A stretch of 8,945 nucleotides of DNA from Chloroflexota bacterium (GTDB lineage: Bacteria; Chloroflexota; Dehalococcoidia; SM23-28-2; RBG-16-64-32). Position numbers and translations under genes: made by a program. Below are positions 1-8,945 of this stretch, piece by piece (the first letter of the stretch is position 1; each line of letters begins with the position of its first letter). Location: NCBI GenBank assembly GCA_016190405.1, contig JACPQO010000256.1:1-8945 (forward strand), written 5' to 3'. Under the pieces are notes generated by a model. That model did no database searches. It was not told where the DNA came from and saw only the letters and a list, made by a program, of their open reading frames with translations.

Positions 1-2
1 CC

Positions 3-10
3 GCTATACT
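3..10 (+). promoter_or_regulatory. Candidate -10 box upstream of the first oxidoreductase
   Basis: GCTATACT contains TATACT at 5-10, a one-mismatch -10 hexamer 65 nt before the ATG at 76. The -35 region would fall outside the window, so this cannot be tested here. The same GCTATA core recurs at 1341 and 8711. Confidence 0.35.
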
Positions 11-75
11 CAAGCCTGCCGTTGCGGCTGCATCGACTCGAAACGGCTCGTAGGCCCGCGACCAGGGGATTAAGC

Positions 76-1314
76 ATGGCCAAGGAACGACTGGGCATAG
101 GCTTCGCCGGCGCCGGCTTCGTCGCCCGCTTCCACATCGAGAGCCTCCTCGCCGTCCGCGACGCCGATGTCGCCGCCGTCACCAGCCCTACCCGCGAGCA
201 CGCCGAGGCCGCCGCTGCCCTGGCCCGCGACCTGGGCCTCGGCGACCCGAAGGTGTACGGCAGCGTCGCCGAGATGGTCGCCGACCCCGCCGTCGACGCC
301 GTCTGGGTCTGCTCCCCCAACGACACCCGCGTCGCCGTCGTCGAGGTGATCGTCGACGCCGTCCGGCGTGGCGCCGATCTCATCGGAGTGGCCTGCGAGA
401 AGCCCCTGGCCCGCAACGTCGCCGAGGCCCGGCGCATGCTCGAGCTCATCGGCGGGACCCCGCTGTTGCACGGCTATCTCGAGAACCAGCTCTTCTCGCC
501 CAGCGTCATGCGCGGCAAGGAGATCATCTGGCGTCGCGCCGTGCCCATCGCCGGGCGGCCCTATCTGGCCCGCGCCGCCGAGGAGCACAGCGGCCCCCAC
601 ATGCCCTGGTTCTGGACCGGCGCCCGCCAGGGCGGCGGCGTCCTCAACGACATGCTCTGCCACAGCTTCGAGGCCGCCCGCTTCCTCCTGGCCGCCCCCG
701 GCGAGCCCCGCGACGCCCTCGCCGTCACCGACGTCAGCGCCCAGATCGCCTCCCTCAAGTGGACACGTCCGGAGTACATCGAGCGGCTGCGCGAGGAGAC
801 CGGCGGCGCCGTGGACTACGCCCGCGCCCCGGCCGAGGACTTCGCCCGCGCTACCGTGCGTCTTCGCACCCCCGAAGGCCTTCCCGTCATCGTCGAGGCC
901 ACCACCTCCTGGGCCTTCGTCGGCCCCGGCCTGCGCCTGCGCATGGAGCTCCTGGGCCCCGAGTACTCCCTGCAGGTCGACACCCTGAACAGCGAGCTGT
1001 CGGTCTTCCTCAGCCGTCGCGTCGCCGGCAGCGAGGGCGAGGACCTGGTGGAGAAGCAGAACGCCGAGCAGGGGCTGATGCCCGTCGTGGCCGACGAAGC
1101 CGCCGCCTACGGCTACGTGGCCGAGAACCGCCACATGGTGCGCGCCTTCCTGGCCGGCCGCCCGCCCGACGAGACCTGGGACGACGGCCTGGCCGTGACC
1201 ACCGTCCTCATGGCCTGCTATCTCTCGGCTGAACAGGGCCGCGCCGTCACCTTCCCGGCCCCGGAGCTGGAGAGCTTCGTCCCGGCGGTCGCGCGGGGGG
1301 AGTGGAGGGGGTAG
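76..1314 (+). CDS. Gfo/Idh/MocA family NAD(P)-dependent oxidoreductase
   Basis: The 412-residue product has the two-domain plan of this family, which oxidises or reduces sugars, inositols or related polyols in the cytoplasm. The N-terminal Rossmann fold carries a dinucleotide loop G12-A-G14-F-V-A17. The E108-K109-P110 motif places the catalytic lysine at 109. The C-terminal domain has G-G-G-V-L-N-D192-M-L-C-H196, which matches the family's D-x-x-x-H active-site pair. The ATG at 76 is preferred over the in-frame TTG at 22 because AGGGGA lies at 64-69 with normal spacing, and because the Rossmann strand begins a few residues after it. The protein is somewhat longer than the usual 330-390 residues, with an insert between about 225 and 265. 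Substrate is not predictable. It is an isolated gene here, followed by a defence-type insert on the same strand. It is a distant paralogue of the minus-strand gene at 4007-5053. Confidence 0.93.
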   Translation: MAKERLGIGFAGAGFVARFHIESLLAVRDADVAAVTSPTREHAEAAAALARDLGLGDPKVYGSVAEMVADPAVDAVWVCSPNDTRVAVVEVIVDAVRRGADLIGVACEKPLARNVAEARRMLELIGGTPLLHGYLENQLFSPSVMRGKEIIWRRAVPIAGRPYLARAAEEHSGPHMPWFWTGARQGGGVLNDMLCHSFEAARFLLAAPGEPRDALAVTDVSAQIASLKWTRPEYIERLREETGGAVDYARAPAEDFARATVRLRTPEGLPVIVEATTSWAFVGPGLRLRMELLGPEYSLQVDTLNSELSVFLSRRVAGSEGEDLVEKQNAEQGLMPVVADEAAAYGYVAENRHMVRAFLAGRPPDETWDDGLAVTTVLMACYLSAEQGRAVTFPAPELESFVPAVARGEWRG

Positions 1315-1342
1315 GACCGCTGCTTGCCACGCCCGCCATCGC

Positions 1343-1348
1343 TATAAT
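1343..1348 (+). promoter_or_regulatory. Consensus -10 box giving a leaderless or near-leaderless methyltransferase mRNA
   Basis: A perfect TATAAT ends 8 nt before the ATG at 1357, so the expected transcription start falls at or next to the start codon. No convincing -35 is seen. TTGCCA at 1324-1329 is only 13 nt away, which is too close. A run of G at 1349-1353 lies too near the ATG to be a normal ribosome-binding site. Confidence 0.55.
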
Positions 1349-1356
1349 GGGGGCTA

Positions 1357-2799
1357 ATGGAAACTAGCGTCATCTACTGCGGCGACAATCTGGAGGTTCT
1401 GCCGAACCACATTCCCGACCAATCGGTGGACCTGATCTACATCGACCCACCGTTCAACAGCAACCGGAAGTATGAGGTGTTCTGGGGCGAGGCAGTGGAA
1501 CGGAGGGCGTTCGAAGACCGTTACGGCGACGCGATGGCCTACCTGAAGTGGATGCGGCCGAGGCTCCGCCAATTGTACCGCGTACTGTCAGCGAAGGGCA
1601 GCTTCTACGTCCACTGCGACTGGCATGTCAGCCACTATCTGAAGGCAGAGCTTGACCGTCTCTTCGGTTTCAACAATTTCCAGAACGAAATTGTGTGGCC
1701 TCGGACGAACGCACACAGCGACGCGAAGCGCTTTGGGCGAATTCATGATGTAATTCTGTTCTACACGAAGAGCCCAAAGTTTACGTTCAACCGCCAATAC
1801 ACCCGCTATACCGCGGAGCAAATCAAAGAGCATTACTGCCATACTGAGCCCGAAACGGGGAGGCCGTACCGGCTGACCGATCTAAGCGCAGCCAAGCCAG
1901 GCGGCGACGTCGAGTACGAGTGGAAAGGGGTGAAGCCTCCAAAGGGTCGTTACTGGGCTTACTCCAGAGCGAACATGGAAAAGTTCGAGGCGGAGGGCCG
2001 TATCTATTACACGAAGAACGGTCGGCCATTCTTGAAACAATACTGGGATGAGATGAAAGAGCGCGGGAATCTGCTCCAAGATGTCTGGACGGACACCCCC
2101 TACAGCCACGGGCGGTCCTTCGCCCGCCTCGGATATCCCACTCAGAAGCCGCTTCCGCTGCTGGAGCGCATCATAGCCGCCAGCTCAAACGAGGGGGACA
2201 TCGTGCTAGATGCGTTCTGCGGCTGCGGAACGACTCTGGAAGCGGCGGCGAAGATGAAGCGGAGGTGGATCGGGATTGACTTCTCCCCGACGGCGTGCCG
2301 GGTGATGTCGGAGCGCCTGGAGAAGCGCCTGGGGCTGAAGGAAGGCCGGGACTTTCAGGTGATGGACCTACCGAAGACTGAGGAAGAGCTGCGGCGCATG
2401 CCGCACTTCGAGTTCCAGAACTGGGCGTGCATTGCGTTAGGCGGTATACCCAGCCGCGTCAAGTCCGCCGACTACGGAATCGACGGGCGCCTGTATCCGG
2501 CGGACGTCGAAAAGCGGTCGGACCGGCAGGAGAAAAAGGGGCAGGCGGACTTCCTGGCGAGCCTCGACAAGTGGTACCCAATCCAGGTGAAGCAGAAGGA
2601 CAGGGCCGGCCGGCCGGATATCGACTCCTTTGAGACCGCGATGATGCGCGACCGGCGGACGAAGGGGTACTTCGTCGCCTTCGGGTTCAGCAAGGACGCC
2701 GAGGCGGAGATCAAGCGGGCGGAGCGCGAACACGGTCTGGAGATCATCCAGGTGACCGTGGGCGAGCTGCTGGAGTTCGAGCGGAAGGTGGGCGTGTAG
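1357..2799 (+). CDS. DNA (adenine/cytosine-N4) methyltransferase fused to an Mrr-like nuclease domain
   Basis: The 480-residue protein begins with a beta-class amino-methyltransferase arrangement. Catalytic motif IV D30-P-P-F33 comes first, and the AdoMet-binding motif D285-A-F-C-G-C-G-T-T293 comes after it, followed by a W-I-G-I-D-F strand. Between them lies a long central part likely to hold target recognition. Residues about 350-470 form a second domain: F353-Q-N-W-A, then G374-I-D376-G, then I-Q410-V-K412-Q. This is the D...Q-x-K form of the PD-(D/E)xK nuclease core seen in Mrr-type restriction enzymes. The likely role is DNA modification, possibly with cleavage by the same chain, as in type IIG-like enzymes. 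Whether the nuclease half is active is inference. The DUF4238 gene starts 3 nt after the stop, so the two are probably co-transcribed. Codon use is less GC-rich than in the flanking genes, which suggests transfer. Target sequence and base are unknown. Confidence 0.9.
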   Translation: METSVIYCGDNLEVLPNHIPDQSVDLIYIDPPFNSNRKYEVFWGEAVERRAFEDRYGDAMAYLKWMRPRLRQLYRVLSAKGSFYVHCDWHVSHYLKAELDRLFGFNNFQNEIVWPRTNAHSDAKRFGRIHDVILFYTKSPKFTFNRQYTRYTAEQIKEHYCHTEPETGRPYRLTDLSAAKPGGDVEYEWKGVKPPKGRYWAYSRANMEKFEAEGRIYYTKNGRPFLKQYWDEMKERGNLLQDVWTDTPYSHGRSFARLGYPTQKPLPLLERIIAASSNEGDIVLDAFCGCGTTLEAAAKMKRRWIGIDFSPTACRVMSERLEKRLGLKEGRDFQVMDLPKTEEELRRMPHFEFQNWACIALGGIPSRVKSADYGIDGRLYPADVEKRSDRQEKKGQADFLASLDKWYPIQVKQKDRAGRPDIDSFETAMMRDRRTKGYFVAFGFSKDAEAEIKRAEREHGLEIIQVTVGELLEFERKVGV

Positions 2800-2802
2800 C
2801 GA

Positions 2803-3747
2803 GTGGCGGCGCAAACGCAGGCCCAGCCGAAGCGACATCACTTCGTTCCCAAGTTCTACCTTCGCCACTTCGCTGACAATAAGCGGCGCGTCCGGATGTA
2901 CACGCGCGGACATAAGAGGAAGCCCATCATAGTCTCAGTGAGTAATGCGGCGGTGGAGTCTGGCCTCTACACCGTACTTGAGGAGTCGGGCGATGAGTCG
3001 CAGAAGGTTGAAGGTCTGCTGTCGCTGATTGAAGGCCAGGCAAAGTCCGCCATTGACAGGATATTGAAGGGGCGATTCCCTCCTGATCTTGAAGACCGCA
3101 GCGCGCTGGCGCTGTTCATGGCGCTTCAAATGCTGCGGACCCCTGAACAGCACCGTCAGTACGAGGCGATGGTGGACTACACGCAGAAGGTTTTGCTGGA
3201 GGGCTGGACGCCTGAGTACGCACGAGAGCGGCTGGAGCAGGCCAGCATGGAGCCGACGCATGAGGCCGTGGCCCAGATTATGGATGTGGTAGAGAATCCT
3301 GATAAGTACAGATTCGTGCCCCACAAGAACGAGCAGATCAGAATCATGCTGAGCGTCGCCACGAATATTGCGCCGGTGATTGCCGCACGCAGTTGGCTTC
3401 TGGGCCAATGCAAGACCGCGAGCTTCATTACAAGCGATCACCCAGTCGTTTGGTGGAGCGAACCAACTGAGATGAGTCGGTACGTGGGCACCGGTGTGGG
3501 GAACGCGCAGGAAGTGCATTTCCCGCTGGACAGGCACCACGCGCTTATGCTTGCCTTGCCCGGGTCGCTGCCCGAGCTAGTGATGGCCGCAGCGGCGGAC
3601 AACGTGCTATTCGTCAATTGGCTTGTCGCGGAGTACTCCTACAGATGGATATATCAGCACCCCGACGATGAGCCTTTGGATTTTCTAATCCCTAAGATGC
3701 CGAAGCCGTTGATGGAGATCAACGGCAAGCCAGTCTTCGACAGGTGA
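2803..3747 (+). CDS. DUF4238 domain-containing protein
   Basis: The 314-residue product has the DUF4238 signature near its N-terminus, H12-H-F-V-P-K-F-Y-L-R-H-F23. A later S-F-I-T-S-D212-H213-P-V motif is also typical, and F-P-L-D-R-H-H-A-L-M-L-A-L-P lies around 242-255. No signal peptide or membrane segment is visible, so it should be cytosolic. The start is GTG, 3 nt after the methyltransferase stop. GGAAGGTGGG at 2783-2792 is the likely ribosome-binding site, and the close spacing suggests translational coupling. The molecular function of DUF4238 is unknown to me. Conserved His/Asp residues would suit a metal or catalytic site, but this is only inference. Its position in a low-GC pair with a methyltransferase-nuclease suggests an accessory role in DNA restriction or phage defence. 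The remnant of another restriction-modification enzyme follows directly. Confidence 0.85.
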   Translation: MAAQTQAQPKRHHFVPKFYLRHFADNKRRVRMYTRGHKRKPIIVSVSNAAVESGLYTVLEESGDESQKVEGLLSLIEGQAKSAIDRILKGRFPPDLEDRSALALFMALQMLRTPEQHRQYEAMVDYTQKVLLEGWTPEYARERLEQASMEPTHEAVAQIMDVVENPDKYRFVPHKNEQIRIMLSVATNIAPVIAARSWLLGQCKTASFITSDHPVVWWSEPTEMSRYVGTGVGNAQEVHFPLDRHHALMLALPGSLPELVMAAAADNVLFVNWLVAEYSYRWIYQHPDDEPLDFLIPKMPKPLMEINGKPVFDR

Positions 3748-3954
3748 TATTCGAGCTGCCCATCCCCTAGTTGCGATCCGGCAAACGCACTCCACCAGCA
3801 CCTCGCCGCCAAGGGCGCCGTCCGCGACAGCGAGCGCGAGGTCATCGAGCGCGAGATCGCCCACACCGACCGCCAGATCGATGACCTCGTCTATGACCTC
3901 TACGGCCTCACCGCCAAAGAGCGCGCCCTCATAGAATCAGAAGTCCGCCGCTAA
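3748..3954 (+). pseudogene. Orphan C-terminal tail of an Eco57I/type IIG-like restriction-modification enzyme
   Basis: One frame is open from just after the DUF4238 stop to the TAA at 3952-3954, but it has no plausible start codon or ribosome-binding site. Its last part reads I-E-R-E-I-A-H-T-D-R-Q-I-D-D-L-V-Y-D-L-Y-G-L-T, then A-K-E-R-A-L-I-E-S. This is the very conserved C-terminal end of Eco57I-like and related type IIG methyltransferase-endonucleases (T-D-x-x-I-D-x-L-V-Y-x-L-Y-G-L-T). Such enzymes usually exceed 900 residues, and only about 55 recognisable residues remain, from about 3781. The segment is GC-rich like the host genome, unlike the insert before it. I infer that an older restriction-modification gene was deleted or replaced when the present pair arrived. 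Homology to this family is quite sure, and loss of function nearly certain. Confidence 0.8.
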
Positions 3955-3959
3955 CCGGC

Positions 3960-4001
3960 CCTCCAACCTCCAACCTCCTACCTCCTGCCTCCTACCTCCT
4001 G
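3960..4001. repeat. Six tandem copies of a 7-bp unit, CCTCC(A/T)N
   Basis: The copies are CCTCCAA, CCTCCAA, CCTCCTA, CCTCCTG, CCTCCTA and CCTCCTG, in perfect 7-bp register. Read on the minus strand each is (C/T)(A/T)GGAGG, so four of the six copies contain AGGAGG. The array fills the space between the type IIG remnant and the stop of the minus-strand oxidoreductase. The changes at the last two positions look like heptad slippage with drift. Confidence 0.9.
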
Positions 4002-4006
4002 CCGCC

Positions 4007-5053
4007 CTACTCCTCCACCTCCACCTCGCGGCCCTCCGCCGCCGAGCGGTAGGCCCCGTTCAGGATGCGCTGCACGTTCAGCGTCTCCTCCTCCTTCACC
4101 GGCGCCTCCCGCTCGCCGCGGACGGCGCGCAGGAAGGCGCGCACCTCCGCCTCGTAGCCGTTGGCCGGCGGCAGGTCCTTGAACTCCTCGCTGGCCAGCA
4201 CACCGTTGCGCAGGTGGAACAGCGCCGGCGGGTTCGTCGTCACGCCGCCTTCCGTCCCCAGCACCAGCGAGTTGAAATACTGCAACTCGCGGATGTGGGC
4301 CGCCCACGACGACCGCAGCACCAGGTCCGCCCCGTTGTCGAACCGCACGAAGGCGATGGCGAAGTCCTCCACGTCGAACCTCTCGGGGTCCCAGGCGTTG
4401 CGCAGGATGGCCGCGATCTCCGGCCGCCGCCCGAACCGCTGCTGCGTCACCGCCGACACCCGCACCGGCCGCGGGTTCCCCATCAGCCACACCGTCTGGT
4501 CCAGGATGTGCACCCCGATATCGAACAGCGCGCCACCCGCCGAGGCCGACTTCTGGTGGAACGCGCCCCAGGTGGGGATGCCCAGCCGGCGCATGGCGCT
4601 GGCCTCCCCGTGGTAGATCTCGCCCAGGGCCCCGTCCTCCACCACCCGCCGTATCGCCCGGGCTTCCGCCGTGAAGCGGAAGAACTGCGCCGCCATCAGC
4701 ACCCGGCCCGCCTTCCGCGCGGCGTCGAACATCTCGTGGGCCTCGGCCACGCTGGTGGCCAGCGGCTTCTCGCACAGCACGTGCGCCCCCGCTTCCAGAG
4801 CCGCGATCGTTATGTCGCGGTGCAGGGCGTTGGCCACGCACACGCTGGCCACGTCCGGGCGCTCCTTCTCGATCATCTCCCGCCAGTCGGCGTACACCCG
4901 CGGGATGCCGTACTGGTCGGCCAGGGACTGGGCCCGCTCCGGGATCAGGTCGCAGATGGCGGCCACCGGCTCGTCGTTGCCCTTGTAGCCCGGCAGGTGG
5001 ACGATGCGGGCCGCGAACCCCGCGCCGATGATCACGATCTTCAGGTCAGACAC
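4007..5053 (-). CDS. Gfo/Idh/MocA family oxidoreductase, last gene of the sugar cluster
   Basis: The 348-residue product is a canonical family member. It has a Rossmann loop G10-A-G12-F-A-A, catalytic E95-K96-P97, and G-G-A-L-F-D178-I-G-V-H182-I-L-D for the substrate site. It should oxidise or reduce a sugar or sugar derivative with NAD(P) in the cytoplasm. GTG at 5053 is chosen over the upstream ATG at 5113 because AGAGGAGG (5063-5070) lies 9 nt before it. The upstream extension would also run through a palindromic repeat and place 20 unrelated residues before the Rossmann strand. It lies downstream of a DUF1080 protein and a TIM-barrel isomerase on the same strand. In that setting it is a candidate 3-dehydrogenase supplying or regenerating a 3-keto-sugar. 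The exact substrate is not readable from sequence. Confidence 0.93.
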   Translation of the reverse strand: MSDLKIVIIGAGFAARIVHLPGYKGNDEPVAAICDLIPERAQSLADQYGIPRVYADWREMIEKERPDVASVCVANALHRDITIAALEAGAHVLCEKPLATSVAEAHEMFDAARKAGRVLMAAQFFRFTAEARAIRRVVEDGALGEIYHGEASAMRRLGIPTWGAFHQKSASAGGALFDIGVHILDQTVWLMGNPRPVRVSAVTQQRFGRRPEIAAILRNAWDPERFDVEDFAIAFVRFDNGADLVLRSSWAAHIRELQYFNSLVLGTEGGVTTNPPALFHLRNGVLASEEFKDLPPANGYEAEVRAFLRAVRGEREAPVKEEETLNVQRILNGAYRSAAEGREVEVEE

Positions 5054-5074
5054 GGACCCTGGCCTCCTCTTAGT

Positions 5075-5094
5075 CTGCGGGTTGAAACCCGCAG
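5075..5094. repeat. Short palindrome (9-bp stem, 2-nt loop)
   Basis: CTGCGGGTT and AACCCGCAG are perfect complements around GA. It lies just upstream of the ribosome-binding site of the Gfo/Idh gene. Its CTGCGGG core is shared with the larger palindrome at 5108-5145, so the two look like members of one REP-like family. Confidence 0.85.
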
Positions 5095-5107
5095 CTTCCC
5101 GATTCGT

Positions 5108-5145
5108 ACTCACAAGCTGCGGGATTCATCCCGCAGCTTGTGAGT
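5108..5145. repeat. Long perfect palindrome (18-bp stem, 2-nt loop), REP-like
   Basis: ACTCACAAGCTGCGGGAT (5108-5125) and ATCCCGCAGCTTGTGAGT (5128-5145) are fully complementary around TC. It lies 12 nt past the isomerase stop and before the next gene of the same strand. A run of T follows at 5145-5149, but on the plus strand, where no gene is transcribed. On the transcribed minus strand no U-run follows, so it is more likely an mRNA-stabilising or attenuating hairpin, or a mobile REP-type element, than a simple terminator. Confidence 0.9.
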
Positions 5146-5156
5146 TTTTCAACAGC

Positions 5157-5954
5157 CTAGATCAACCGCTCCAGCTGCGCCTTCGCCGACTGGATGCCAT
5201 CTCGCTCCGGCAGCCGCTCCCCCTCGAACTCGATGCCGACGAAGCCCCGGTACCCGGCCGCCTTCACGATCTCCAGCATGCGCGCGAAGTCGATGGCCGT
5301 CTCCCGCCCGTCGGGGCCGAAGTCGTAGCACTTGGCGCTGACGGCTTTGGCGAAGGGCATCAGCTTGGCCACCGATTCGTAGCGATCCACGCCCGGCGCG
5401 AAGTTACCGAAGTCCGGCAGCGTGCCCAGCCGCGGGCTGCCCACCAGCTCGATGAGCGACACCAGCCAGTCGGCGTCCGACGACAGCCCGCCGTGGTTCT
5501 CGATCATGAGGTCGACGCCGCTGCCGTCGGCGTACTCCAGCAGCGCTCCGAACGCCTCCGCCGCCCGCTCCCGCATGGCGGCGGGGTCGCTCTCGTCCCC
5601 GCGGACGTTGCAGCGGATGCCGTGGCAGCCCAGCACGGCGGCGATGTCCACCCACTTGCGGTGGTTGCGCGCGGCCTGGAGCCGCTTCTCGCGATCCGGG
5701 TGGCCCATGTCACCCTCCAGGTCGCACATGATGAGCAGCAGCTCGATCCCCAGTTCCTCGGCCCGTCTTCGCAGGTGGCGCAGGTAGGCGTACTGCGGCG
5801 AGGGGAAGAAGGTGTTCACCATCTCGAAGCCCGCGATCCCCATCTCGCCGCAGGCCTCCAGCATCCCCATCTGGTCCAGCTCGCGGGCGAAGAACGCCCG
5901 GTGCAGCGACCAGGCCGCCAGCGAGACCTTGAGCCCGCCGACCGCCGCCGTCAC
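5157..5954 (-). CDS. Sugar phosphate isomerase/epimerase-like TIM-barrel protein
   Basis: The 265-residue product belongs to the AP-endonuclease-2-like (xylose isomerase-type) TIM-barrel family, which includes hydroxypyruvate isomerase, inosose dehydratase and several sugar epimerases and hydratases. Visible strand-end motifs are G-F-E44, M-I-E152-N-H-G-G, L-P-D181-F-G-N and G-I-E242-F-E-G. The acidic residues at 152, 181 and 242 are the expected ligands of a divalent metal. The position often held by His in this family reads A-K208-C-Y-D-F. The GTG at 5954 overlaps the stop of the DUF1080 gene (GTGA, 4 nt), which indicates translational coupling. The homologous barrel begins within 10 residues of it, and the upstream part of the open frame is an out-of-frame reading of the DUF1080 gene. 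In this cluster a role as hydratase or isomerase of a keto-sugar intermediate is plausible. Specific chemistry is not assigned. Confidence 0.9.
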   Translation of the reverse strand: MTAAVGGLKVSLAAWSLHRAFFARELDQMGMLEACGEMGIAGFEMVNTFFPSPQYAYLRHLRRRAEELGIELLLIMCDLEGDMGHPDREKRLQAARNHRKWVDIAAVLGCHGIRCNVRGDESDPAAMRERAAEAFGALLEYADGSGVDLMIENHGGLSSDADWLVSLIELVGSPRLGTLPDFGNFAPGVDRYESVAKLMPFAKAVSAKCYDFGPDGRETAIDFARMLEIVKAAGYRGFVGIEFEGERLPERDGIQSAKAQLERLI

Positions 5955-6532
5955 GGCAGCGGCCCCACGCTGACTTCGCGGAAGTAGACGGCAGACGCCG
6001 GGTCGTGGTTCTGGAGCCCGATGTAACCGGATTCGGGGCGCGGCCCCCGCTCCGGCTCGTAGGGGAACTGCCGCTCCGGCAGCGGGCCCGACGGGTCGAA
6101 CCGCGTGACCAGCTCCCCGTTCAGCGTCACGTCGATGCACGTCCCCCTCATCGCAATCTCCATGACGTTCCACTCGCCGGGCGGCTTCTGGGCCTCAGCC
6201 AATGCGCGGCTGAGCGAGTAGATGCAGCCGGTGCAGTGCCACTCGTCGCCGGTGGCCAGGATCTGCACCTCGTAGCCGTGGTGGACGGCGTACCAGGGAT
6301 TCGGCGGCCGCTCGGCGATCCGCACGAAGACGCCGGAGTTGTCCTCCACGCGACTCACCCGGTACACCACGCGAAGCATGGCGTCGCCGATCTTCGATTC
6401 GGTGTACCAGAGGAGGCCCATGCCGCCCTCGGTCTTCAGCGCCCCGCCCTCAACGACGAAGCTGCCCGGGCCGGTCATCTCCCAGCCCGTGAGATCGCGA
6501 CTGTTGAACAGTTGCCGGCGGCGTGCAGTCAT
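5951..6532 (-). CDS. DUF1080 (3-keto-glycoside lyase/hydratase-type) protein
   Basis: The 193-residue product shows the ordered motifs of the PF06439 jelly-roll family: L-F-N-S-R-D-L-T-G-W at 8-17, N-S-G-V-F-V-R-I, G-Y-E-V-Q-I, G-E-W-N, and G-Y-I-G-L-Q-N-H near the end. Characterised members act on 3-keto-glycosides by 1,2-elimination or hydration, and older annotation calls them 3-keto-disaccharide hydrolases. Many relatives are secreted, but no signal peptide is visible, so this one should be cytoplasmic. The ATG at 6532 is chosen because the homologous part begins directly after it. A GTG at 6565 is possible. Neither start has a good ribosome-binding site. TATACT on this strand at 6557-6562 may be its -10 box. 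It is the first gene of a three-gene unit and overlaps the isomerase by 4 nt. Confidence 0.9.
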   Translation of the reverse strand: MTARRRQLFNSRDLTGWEMTGPGSFVVEGGALKTEGGMGLLWYTESKIGDAMLRVVYRVSRVEDNSGVFVRIAERPPNPWYAVHHGYEVQILATGDEWHCTGCIYSLSRALAEAQKPPGEWNVMEIAMRGTCIDVTLNGELVTRFDPSGPLPERQFPYEPERGPRPESGYIGLQNHDPASAVYFREVSVGPLP

Positions 6533-6556
6533 AGCAGGAGGAATGCGTCGCCTGCT

Positions 6557-6562
6557 AGTATA
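6557..6562 (-). promoter_or_regulatory. Candidate -10 box for the sugar cluster
   Basis: TATACT on the minus strand lies 24 nt before the ATG at 6532, giving a short leader of about 18 nt. No good -35 hexamer stands 16-18 nt upstream, so the site is tentative. The alternative is read-through from the Lrp-like gene, which ends 72 nt before that ATG. Confidence 0.35.
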
Positions 6563-6604
6563 CACACGCTGACGCCTGCCGCCAGCGCCCCCGCGCCCTC
6601 GTAG

Positions 6605-6853
6605 CTAACTCAACCTCACCACCAGGCAGGTTGTCGTCCGCTGCACCCCCTCCACCCGCTGCATCCGCGATATCGCTTGCCCCAGCTTATCCAGATCTTC
6701 CGCGTCTACCTGTACGATGAGGTCGTACGGGCCCGTCACCACATCCACGGAAAGGACGTTGGTGTCCGGCAGCGAAAGGCTTTGGAGCCCCTGCCCGACA
6801 GGCTTCGCTTTGCCCACGGCAGCCTCCACAAGGATGTAGGCCCTCATCGCCAT
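6605..6853 (-). CDS. Stand-alone Lrp/AsnC ligand-binding (RAM) domain protein
   Basis: The 82-residue product is the alpha/beta ligand-binding half of Lrp/AsnC regulators, with no helix-turn-helix. It begins A-Y-I-L-V-E-A, has the family's V-V-T-G-P-Y-D-L-I-V-Q-V-D-A core, and ends in a T-T-T-C-L-V-V-R-L strand. Such single-domain proteins form dimers or larger rings that bind amino acids or other small ligands. They may act alone or modulate full-length Lrp proteins. The ATG at 6853 follows an excellent ribosome-binding site, AGAGGAGG at 6861-6868, with 7-nt spacing, so the short form is the real gene. The longer open frame upstream of the ATG is a shadow of non-coding DNA and the redoxin end. 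Its partner and ligand are not evident from the neighbours. Confidence 0.9.
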   Translation of the reverse strand: MAMRAYILVEAAVGKAKPVGQGLQSLSLPDTNVLSVDVVTGPYDLIVQVDAEDLDKLGQAISRMQRVEGVQRTTTCLVVRLS

Positions 6854-6966
6854 GTTCACACCTCCTCTAAACCCGCGTCGACCGAGGTGGCTGCGGCGGG
6901 GCGCCAGCGGACCTAGAACCGACGGCCGGTGGCCGCCTGCGGCCAGAGCCTGCTCCCGCCAGCCGT
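6854..6966 (-). other. Intergenic gap after the redoxin gene
   Basis: These 113 nt hold the ribosome-binding site of the Lrp-like gene and a GC-rich perfect hairpin, GGCCGC-CT-GCGGCC at 6931-6944. No U-run follows the hairpin, so it is at best a weak or Rho-assisted stop. I see no gene here. Confidence 0.5.
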
Positions 6967-8082
6967 CTACTCTGGCATCCCCTCCATCTCGATGCGCGGG
7001 TAATACCGCTGGTCGCCCAGGGCGTCCACGGCTGCCCAGAACTCCGGCCCGCCCGCCTTGGCCGGCTCCTCCAGCCACCAGCCCTGCCGACGGAAGTTCC
7101 AGCTCTCGGGCCGCAGCCGGATGGACTCCGACAGGTACTTCTGGGCGTCCTCCTGGTGCCCCTTCCGGTGCAGGTACACCGCCATCCGAAAGTTGGCCGC
7201 CGCCAGCGCCTGCTCCTCCGACGGCCCCCGCAGCCTGCGCTGCGCCTCCTCCGGCGACAGCGCGTACGCGCTCGCCTGCCCCTTCGCCACCCAGTCCCGT
7301 AGGGCGTCCGTGTACAGCTTGCGCTTCCGCCTCAGCTCGGCCAGCGCTTCCTCCGGCATCCGGTAGGTGGCGTGGTCCATAGTCCGGAACTCGTCGCCCA
7401 CGCCGGCCGGCTCCGTGGGCCGCACGATCCGTCCGCCCTCGTCGATCCAGACAGCGCTGGGCACGTTCACCATGTCGTACAGCTCGGCCACGACATGCTT
7501 CTCGTCGATCAGACAGGGGTAGGCGGGGTTCGCCGCCCGGATCCAGGGGCCGGCCGCGCCGGCGCCGCCCGTATCGAAGGCCACCGACACCACCACGAAG
7601 TTCTGGTCCTTCAGGTCATCGTACAGGGCCTGCCAGACCGGCAGGTCGAAGCGGCACCCTCACCACGACGCCCAGGAGACCAGGAAGACCTTCTTCCCCC
7701 GGCAATTGGAAAGAGAATGCGGGCGCCCCTCCAGGTCCGGCAGCGTAAAGTCCGGCGCCTCCAGCGAGAGGAGCCGGCTCCGCCGCTCTGCCGCCGCCTC
7801 GCCGAACAGCCACACTGAATGCGCTTCGTCGTGGATCACCGGCTGACCCAGGAGCCGGGCCAGCGCCGTCAGGTTGAAGCGGCCGCCGTCCCGCCGCAGG
7901 AACTCCCCCTCGCGTCCGGCCAGGATGGGAACACAGACGTCATCCTGACAGACTCCCTCGGGCCTCAGTTCCCAACCCGTCGACCGCCGCAGATCATCGA
8001 GCGGCAGCCACAGGTCATCGCCCTCAGCGACGGCGTGCGCAACCTCCGGTTCGCGGTGTCCGTAGATCAGCGTAACTGGCAT
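6967..8082 (-). CDS. Selenocysteine-containing redoxin (thioredoxin-fold, UGC motif) with TPR-like tail
   Basis: This is read as one 371-residue protein with the in-frame TGA at 7660-7662 decoded as Sec141. Residues 1-105 are an N-terminal region with L-W-L-P-L-D-D-L and a C45/C50 pair. Residues about 107-225 are an AhpC/TSA-ResA-type redoxin domain: E-A-P-D-F-T-L-P-D-L-E-G, then F-L-V-S-W-A-S-W140-Sec141-G-C143-R, then N-V-P207-S-A-V-W-I-D holding the cis-proline. Residues about 290-330 resemble a tetratricopeptide helix pair. The TGA stands exactly where this family has its catalytic Cys. Frame and homology continue unbroken after it, and a SECIS-like hairpin follows. ATG 8082 is chosen because AGGAGGTG (8085-8092) precedes it closely. 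No signal peptide is seen, so it is probably a cytosolic thiol or peroxide reductase. Alternatives are a nonsense mutation or a sequencing error. Conventional annotation would split it into 7660-8109 and 6967-7596. Confidence 0.85.
7626..7659 (-). promoter_or_regulatory. Candidate bacterial SECIS element
   Basis: In the mRNA, 14 nt after the UGA, CCUGCC (7645-7640), GGUCU loop (7639-7635) and GGCAGG (7634-7629) form a perfect 6-bp hairpin. GGG directly after the UGA (7659-7657) can pair with CCC (7628-7626) as a lower stem. The loop opens with GG and matches the GGUC(U) loop core of the E. coli fdhF SECIS. The UGA-to-loop distance of 20 nt suits bacterial SelB-dependent recoding. A competing fold, GACC-UGCC-GGUC, exists but is shorter. 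Confidence 0.75.
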
Positions 8083-8108
8083 GGCACCTCCTATCCTAGA
8101 ATAAGCCA

Positions 8109-8137
8109 ATCGTGCTCAAAAGCGGCGGGATTGTCAA
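8109..8137 (-). promoter_or_regulatory. Candidate promoter of the selenoprotein gene
   Basis: On the minus strand a perfect -35 TTGACA (8137-8132) stands 17 nt before a weak -10, CACGAT (8114-8109). This would start transcription near 8102, about 20 nt before the ATG at 8082. TATTCT further downstream is a better hexamer but lies 28 nt from the -35. Confidence 0.4.
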
Positions 8138-8181
8138 ACCCCCGCGCTCGTGCGGCCCCGACGACAGCCGGCCGGGTGATG

Positions 8182-8187
8182 TACAAT
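8182..8187 (+). promoter_or_regulatory. Candidate -10 box of the Usp-like gene
   Basis: TACAAT is one mismatch from consensus and would start transcription near 8194. That gives a short leader holding AGAGGGG at 8197-8203 before the GTG at 8212. CCGACG, 18 nt upstream, is a poor -35. Confidence 0.4.
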
Positions 8188-8211
8188 CGTAGGGGAAGAG
8201 GGGTGAGTGTG

Positions 8212-8661
8212 GTGGCTAGATACTTGGTAGTGGCGCACCAGACGGCGGGCAGCCCCGAGCTTTCGAAGCAAGTCGAGGCTCTCGCGGCTAGCGATCCCGG
8301 CGCAGAGTTTGTTCTGTTGGTCCCGACCACGCCGGTGCAGCATCTGCTGACCTGGGTTGAGGGCGAGGCCCGGGCGGTAGCTGAGCGAGCTGCGGAGGTC
8401 GCCCAAACCCATCTTGAGGCGGCCGGAGCAAGAGTCCTCCGTGCCGGCGTGGGAGACTCATCGCCGATGCTGGCTATCGAGGACGAACTGCGGGACAACC
8501 CCGGACTGTACGACGCCCTCGTCATCTGCACCCTTCCGGCCGGCGTCTCCCGCTGGCTTCGGCTGGACCTGCCCCATCAGGCGGAGCGCAAGTTCGCCCT
8601 GCCCGTCATCCACGTCGTCGCCGCGCCCCGGGTGGCTGCGGCGAAGCGCGAGCCCGCCTAG
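8212..8661 (+). CDS. Small Usp-like (Rossmann-type alpha/beta) protein of unknown function
   Basis: The 149-residue product starts with a hydrophobic strand, A-R-Y-L-V-V-A-H-Q-T-A, then F-V-L-L-V-P-T-T-P. It contains an alanine/glutamate-rich helix and a G-D-S-S-P-M-L-A-I-E-D-E-L segment, followed by Y-D-A-L-V-I-C-T-L-P. It ends with S-R-W-L-R-L-D-L-P-H-Q-A-E-R-K and L-P-V-I-H-V. This order resembles universal-stress-like proteins, with a nucleotide-type fold and a terminal strand after a serine/arginine loop, but the classical G-2x-G-9x-G-S/T motif is not intact. GTG 8212 is chosen over GTG 8203, GTG 8209 and ATG 8179 because AGAGGGG at 8197-8203 gives it normal spacing and the first strand begins at once. 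No membrane segment is seen. It is transcribed away from the selenoprotein gene. I do not assign a function. Confidence 0.8.
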   Translation: MARYLVVAHQTAGSPELSKQVEALAASDPGAEFVLLVPTTPVQHLLTWVEGEARAVAERAAEVAQTHLEAAGARVLRAGVGDSSPMLAIEDELRDNPGLYDALVICTLPAGVSRWLRLDLPHQAERKFALPVIHVVAAPRVAAAKREPA

Positions 8662-8712
8662 GACGGGCGCTGTCCGCACGACACTCGAGCCGACCGGCCC
8701 TCGCCCCTGTGC

Positions 8713-8718
8713 TATAAT
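8713..8718 (+). promoter_or_regulatory. Consensus -10 box giving a leaderless larA-like mRNA
   Basis: A perfect TATAAT ends 9 nt before the ATG at 8728, and there is no ribosome-binding site between them. CCGACC at 8690-8695, with 17-nt spacing, is a weak -35. The layout repeats that at 1343-1357. Confidence 0.55.
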
Positions 8719-8727
8719 CGCGCCGCT

Positions 8728-8945
8728 ATGGTCGATGTGCCCCTGCCCTACGGCGACGCCATCGTGAAGGTCAGCCTCCCCGACCGCACGCAGCTCGTGG
8801 GCGGCGGCGACGGCGGCCCTCGCATACCGCCGGTCGCAGACCAGGCGGCCGCCGTCCGCGAGGCCCTGGCCAGCCCCATCGGCCTGCCGCGACTCGGCCA
8901 GCTCGTGCGGCCCGGCGCCCGCGTCCTCATCGCTTTCGACGACCC
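8728..8945 (+). CDS. LarA-type nickel-dependent racemase (DUF2088), N-terminal part, cut by window end
   Basis: Only the first 72 residues lie in the window. They open with V-P-L-P-Y-G-D and V-S-L-P-D-R-T, then have A-A-V-R-E-A-L-A-S-P-I-G-L-P-R-L, then L-V-R-P-G-A-R-V-L-I-A-F-D-D. This is the characteristic beginning of the LarA/DUF2088 family: a short beta region, the R-E-A-L-x-x-P-I-G motif, and the first Rossmann-like strand ending in D-D. Members racemise lactate or epimerise other 2-hydroxy acids using a nickel-pincer cofactor made by LarB, LarC and LarE. The cofactor-binding lysine and histidines lie beyond the window, so activity cannot be judged. The ATG at 8728 is the only start that fits the family. 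It has no ribosome-binding site and looks leaderless. Confidence 0.85.
   Translation, partial: MVDVPLPYGDAIVKVSLPDRTQLVGGGDGGPRIPPVADQAAAVREALASPIGLPRLGQLVRPGARVLIAFDD

Follow-up and report, generated by a model that had tools for sequence, protein, structure and literature searches.

Known UGC-Containing Selenoproteins and Related Thiol Enzymes

The thiol oxidoreductases ResA, TlpA, and DsbE have a CxxC active site and an N-terminal membrane anchor or signal, and the peroxiredoxins proper (AhpC/TSA) are characterized by a T/S-x-x-C peroxidatic motif. Selenoproteins with a UGC motif have also been catalogued. The NCBIfam family NF041054.1 (WAxxUGC_long, "ResA-like WAxxUGC motif-containing protein") is defined by a curated cut-off, set at 300 bits. 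The row "Prx-like (UGC-containing)" (pfam00578, motif UGC, 46 sequences) appears in a table of PMC2398784 (2008), the same name is tabulated in PMC9312934, and a table of PMC13188914 (2026) has the row "UGC-containing TlpA disulfide reductase family protein" (cd02966). These rows, as tabulated, do not give the full architecture; they likely refer to the same family as the long NF041054 proteins. A further thioredoxin-like selenoprotein, Sec.2 (UxC, PF13192), is named in PMC13188914.

Our analysis of a stretch of 8,945 nucleotides from a Chloroflexota bacterium (assembly GCA_016190405.1, contig JACPQO010000256.1, positions 1-8,945; hereafter the window) revealed a gene on the minus strand (6967..8082) that belongs to an already known type of selenoprotein, as follows from its match to NF041054 and from the UGC-containing rows of the three tables. 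On the grounds of its sequence, it very probably encodes a WAxxUGC (NF041054) selenoprotein, with the UGA at codon 141 read as selenocysteine (Sec). The read-through protein scored 350.4 bits against NF041054.1 (E = 1.3e-104; residues 27-366 aligned to positions 9-354 of the 354-position profile), has the WAxxUGC motif, and matches PF00578/PF08534 at residues 108-221. It shares the whole architecture, the length and the UGC motif with NF041054, and no defining feature separates it from this family, of which it is one further member. The NF041054 cut-off was also reached by three relatives with Cys at position 141 (P0002, P0012, and P0041).

With the tabulated UGC-containing rows the protein has the domain type and the UGC motif in common. 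Sec.2 resembles it in being thioredoxin-like and in having Sec and Cys two residues apart; however, as named in PMC13188914, it belongs to PF13192, not to PF00578/PF08534. The thioredoxin fold is shared with ResA/TlpA/DsbE, but the place of their CxxC is taken by U141-G-C143, so that the downstream partner Cys lies at +2 (in CxxC thioredoxins it occupies +3), and there are additional N- and C-terminal parts. No membrane anchor was seen in a rough hydropathy test, in which the 19-residue Kyte-Doolittle mean peaked at 1.17, within the fold (residue 163); the product is probably cytosolic. The T/S-x-x-C motif of AhpC/TSA is also absent, residue 138, three positions before U141, being Ala.

Gene Structure

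The gene comprises 371 codons, from ATG at 8082 to TAG at 6967, and is preceded by a Shine-Dalgarno sequence AGGAGGT (8086..8092, minus strand). The only internal stop of the frame is the TGA of codon 141 (7660..7662, minus strand), whereas the two remaining minus-strand frames contain 8 and 5 stops. Before and after the TGA alike, GC by codon position shows a coding-like pattern (0.75/0.48/0.81 on the 5' side and 0.71/0.47/0.94 on the 3' side). A preliminary description of this DNA had presented the locus as an unannotated selenoprotein gene, with two same-frame open reading frames split by a single TGA, otherwise uninterrupted over 371 codons and of coding-like composition on either side. 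Translation reproduced this arrangement exactly, the codon-position GC values bore out the composition, and the TGA was confirmed to occupy the redox site of the thioredoxin fold, in the context W-A-S-W-TGA-G-C (residues 137-143) followed by R144. The joined frame is far beyond chance, given the strength of the NF041054 match and the recurrence of TGA at codon 141 in 109 of 111 unique loci (see below).

Position 141 in Homologs

A search of 5.8 billion proteins, in which 7996 candidates were scored, yielded 831 relatives, 120 of which were listed and aligned. Position 141 is spanned by 59 of the 120 listed homologs, with Cys in 56, Trp in two (P0001 and P0006), and Ser in one; we infer that the Trp residues come from gene callers reading TGA as Trp. 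The other 61 listed homologs are fragments that start after residue 141, the product expected from gene callers meeting a Sec codon, and the start-less fragments foreseen in the preliminary description are thus common in databases. Accordingly, this is a widespread selenoprotein family that is often shortened there. The full-length homolog P0003 (58% identical) reads WASWSECR, with Ser-Glu in place of Cys/Sec and Gly; either the redox residue has been lost in nature, or the sequence is an artefact of the database.

At the nucleotide level, an alignment scan in which each species was represented by a single genome found 286 relatives, from which the best 80 by similarity to the query were taken; codon 141 is TGA in 79 of these and TGC in one. 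Forty further loci from two chosen classes were added, and after removal of 9 duplicates from the resulting 120 loci, codon 141 was TGA in 109 of 111 unique loci, TGC in two, and TGG in none, a share that is not a census, as the sampling favors relatives of a Sec-containing query. The expectation that homologs would show Cys or Sec at this position therefore held in both data sets.

Titles of the records among the best 80 loci include Rokuibacteriota, Binataceae, Deltaproteobacteria, Chloroflexi, and Rubrobacter, as well as Alpha- and Gammaproteobacteria and Burkholderiales. Six loci (L003, L046, L064, L069, L048, and L056) come from draft genomes titled Klebsiella pneumoniae or Bordetella parapertussis; one of them, L003, nearly matches L002, a locus titled Deltaproteobacteria, in its whole sequence after codon 141, and environmental bins may have been mislabelled with these titles. 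G277 (L118) and G309 (C4:870953-873027) each carry the gene twice in tandem, both copies with TGA, a duplicated selenoprotein. In one class, three matches (G082:C254, G083:C65, and G084:C8) count one TAA besides the TGA.

Hairpin Downstream of the UGA Codon

The UGA is followed by a bSECIS-type hairpin, CCUGCC-GGUCU-GGCAGG (7629..7645, minus strand), whose loop starts 20 nt after the UGA. The bSECIS rules given in PMC13188914 include a loop of 3-9 nt with G in one of the first two places, a stem of 4-16 bp, a distance of 16-37 nt between the UGA and the loop, and an energy at or below -7.5 kcal/mol. The window hairpin (a 5-nt loop, GGUCU, on a 6-bp stem, at a distance of 20 nt) agrees with these loop, stem and spacing rules. 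An Rfam search of the window gave no match.

The five inner pairs of the stem are standard in all 109 unique TGA loci, and all of these have a loop of the form NGNNT; the sixth pair is broken in 26 of them. Leu147 is encoded by CTG (85) or TTG (24) and by no other codon. When 155 conserved sites were ranked by deviation from the pooled codon usage of the genes, Leu147, Val149, and Pro148 took ranks 2, 4, and 7, rank 1 being held by Ser271, far outside the hairpin. The genetic code thus leaves freedom at the hairpin codons, yet the genes leave that freedom unused.

Covariation was analyzed in 38 sequences, comprising the window and 37 TGA loci picked for spread. In this set, 97.8% of the cells pair, and both partners of a pair are changed in 9 cells; shuffles gave 1.8, and none of 500 reached 9. 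For two of the five covariation measures (the number of pairs changed on both sides, and further pair types), 169 of 500 shuffles equalled the data. When the partner was shifted by 1-3 columns, pairing fell to 31-64%.

The 50-nt fold of the window is not significantly stable (z = -0.96). In a 45-nt fold including the UGA, the conserved stem has a probability of about 3% and an alternative fold is favored. Once the UGA and the 6 nt that follow it are left out (nucleotides 10-40), the conserved stem becomes the preferred structure, with an energy of -11.1 kcal/mol. A ribosome covering the UGA and the next nucleotides would be expected to favor the conserved stem. In 32 of 79 related loci, the 17-nt core is sufficient by itself to reach -7.5 kcal/mol. 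One Cys-encoding copy (L015) also keeps the stem. The 109 unique aligned bSECIS elements provide material for testing SECIS rules.

Selenocysteine Machinery in Related Genomes

Twenty-five carrier genomes were chosen from the best 80 loci, 24 with TGA and one (G012) with TGC, and compared with 14 control genomes. SelB was found over the cut-off in 21 of 25 carriers and in 2 of 14 controls; the four remaining carriers all have SelA over the cut-off, which was seen in 1 of 14 controls. A tRNA-Sec passed the gathering score in 20 carriers and exceeded 60 bits in 18, while 5 of 14 controls also passed the gathering score, so that scores near 47-50 are doubtful. The preliminary description had counted an absence of selB and selC from a complete genome of this organism against a selenoprotein; in the 25 related carriers, SelB or SelA was found in each. 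In a six-frame search, NF041054 was over its cut-off in 18 of 25 carriers and in none of the 14 controls. SelA was present in 10 of 14 related carriers, most of which lack SelB over the cut-off.

Two classes were examined as a whole. In the class of G012, the gene is carried by 24 of 197 genomes and SelB by 131 of 197. Of the 22 TGA carriers (18 read as codons and 4 taken from the stop tally), 21 have SelB, compared with 110 of the remaining 175 genomes (Fisher p = 9e-4, uncorrected for kinship), and the sole TGA carrier without SelB, G269, has SelA. As to the TGC copies, G012 has both SelB and SelA, and in G159 a search for these two proteins found neither. In the class of G001, where 46 of 95 genomes carry the gene, SelB over the cut-off is found in 41 of the 46 carriers and in 42 of the 49 other genomes, and the class is therefore uninformative on the association. 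Of the five carriers of this class without SelB over the cut-off, G071 has SelA and a SelB cut short where the contig ends, and G080 has SelA; in G082, G085, and G099, whose completeness was not given, neither SelB nor SelA was found.

Alternative Readings of the TGA Codon

A dying gene, with a recent nonsense mutation of a Cys or Trp codon, or a sequencing error would be compatible with an interruption of only one codon and with evidence that comes from a single contig. Such an accident has a negligible probability, as 109 of 111 unique loci, spread over many lineages, share the TGA at this codon together with a conserved hairpin. Translation of TGA as Trp (genetic code 4 or 25), which would place W at 141, agrees with the two Trp-containing proteins among the 59 listed homologs that span the position. 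It is nevertheless very improbable, considering that the other Pfam-matched genes of the window have open frames in translation table 11, that 56 of the same 59 homologs have Cys and one has Ser, that none of the 111 unique loci has TGG, and that SelB or SelA is present in carriers.

The UGA could also act as a regulated stop, yielding, depending on selenium, a truncated protein of 140 residues in addition to the Sec-containing one. The N-terminal domain with C45 and C50, modelled alone, is predicted with high confidence (pLDDT 94) and ends well before the UGA, so that a short product could fold. We nevertheless regard this arrangement as unlikely, since in the model the UGA lies inside the thioredoxin fold, and the truncated product would contain a broken domain. 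Reading of UGA 141 as Sec, in contrast, is supported by the Cys/TGA exchange at this position, the hairpin and the presence of SelB or SelA in carriers, and in this respect the selenoprotein claim of the preliminary description stands.

Domain Architecture and Proposed Mechanism

The product consists of three parts: an N-terminal domain that contains a CX4C pair, a thioredoxin fold of the ResA/TlpA type and a helical C-terminal part. The N-terminal domain (residues 1-97; 7792..8082, minus strand) contains the invariant C45 and C50. A Pfam search of it gave nothing with E of 10 or less, and its model had no Foldseek match in the PDB at E <= 0.001; this invariant pair, in a domain with no Pfam or clear PDB fold match, is the less explored feature of the family. 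The redoxin domain follows at residues 108-221 (7420..7761, minus strand). The model of the whole protein (pLDDT 96.6) has the ResA/DsbE fold and places the UGA codon between strand 131-137 and helix 142-160. Cys143 (7654..7656, minus strand), the putative partner of Sec141 in the U-G-C motif, is conserved in 60 of 60 aligned proteins and in 111 of 111 unique loci. The C-terminal region (residues about 244-371; 6970..7353, minus strand) is helical in the model and weakly TPR-like; TPR matches were found in the relatives P0016 and P0041, all under the Pfam gathering scores.

In the selenoprotein reading, SelB with Sec-tRNA(Sec) would bind the hairpin, and the ribosome would then read UGA 141 as Sec. 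Sec141 would most likely attack a disulfide or a peroxide, and Cys143 would resolve the intermediate as a selenenylsulfide (Se-S), which would then be reduced, possibly through C45/C50. We give the details of this redox chemistry about an even chance of being correct. More tentatively, and with some doubt on our part, the protein could be a self-contained cytosolic selenium redox machine, in which the CX4C domain exchanges electrons with a strained Se-S bond of the UGC motif. If so, the Se-S chemistry of the UGC motif would be absent from both ResA and the peroxiredoxins. The C45/C50 pair and the UGC spacing pose the biochemical question of which substrate and which electron donor are used.

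Neighboring Genes

Just downstream of the selenoprotein gene, an apparent stand-alone Lrp/AsnC ligand-binding domain without the DNA-binding part is encoded (6605-6844, minus strand). The start of a LarA-like nickel-pincer racemase gene (8728-8943, plus strand) is cut by the contig end, and all its scores are far under the full-length cut-offs. The window also encodes a Gfo/Idh protein; among its 120 listed relatives, the four with an organism name are all Chloroflexi, Chloroflexota or Dehalococcoidia, in keeping with a host in Chloroflexota. A gene for an N6/N4 DNA methylase that ends in an Mrr-type endonuclease part (PF01555 and PF04471; 1357-3747, plus strand) is directly followed by a gene for a DUF4238 protein, and the two may form a restriction-modification or defence pair.
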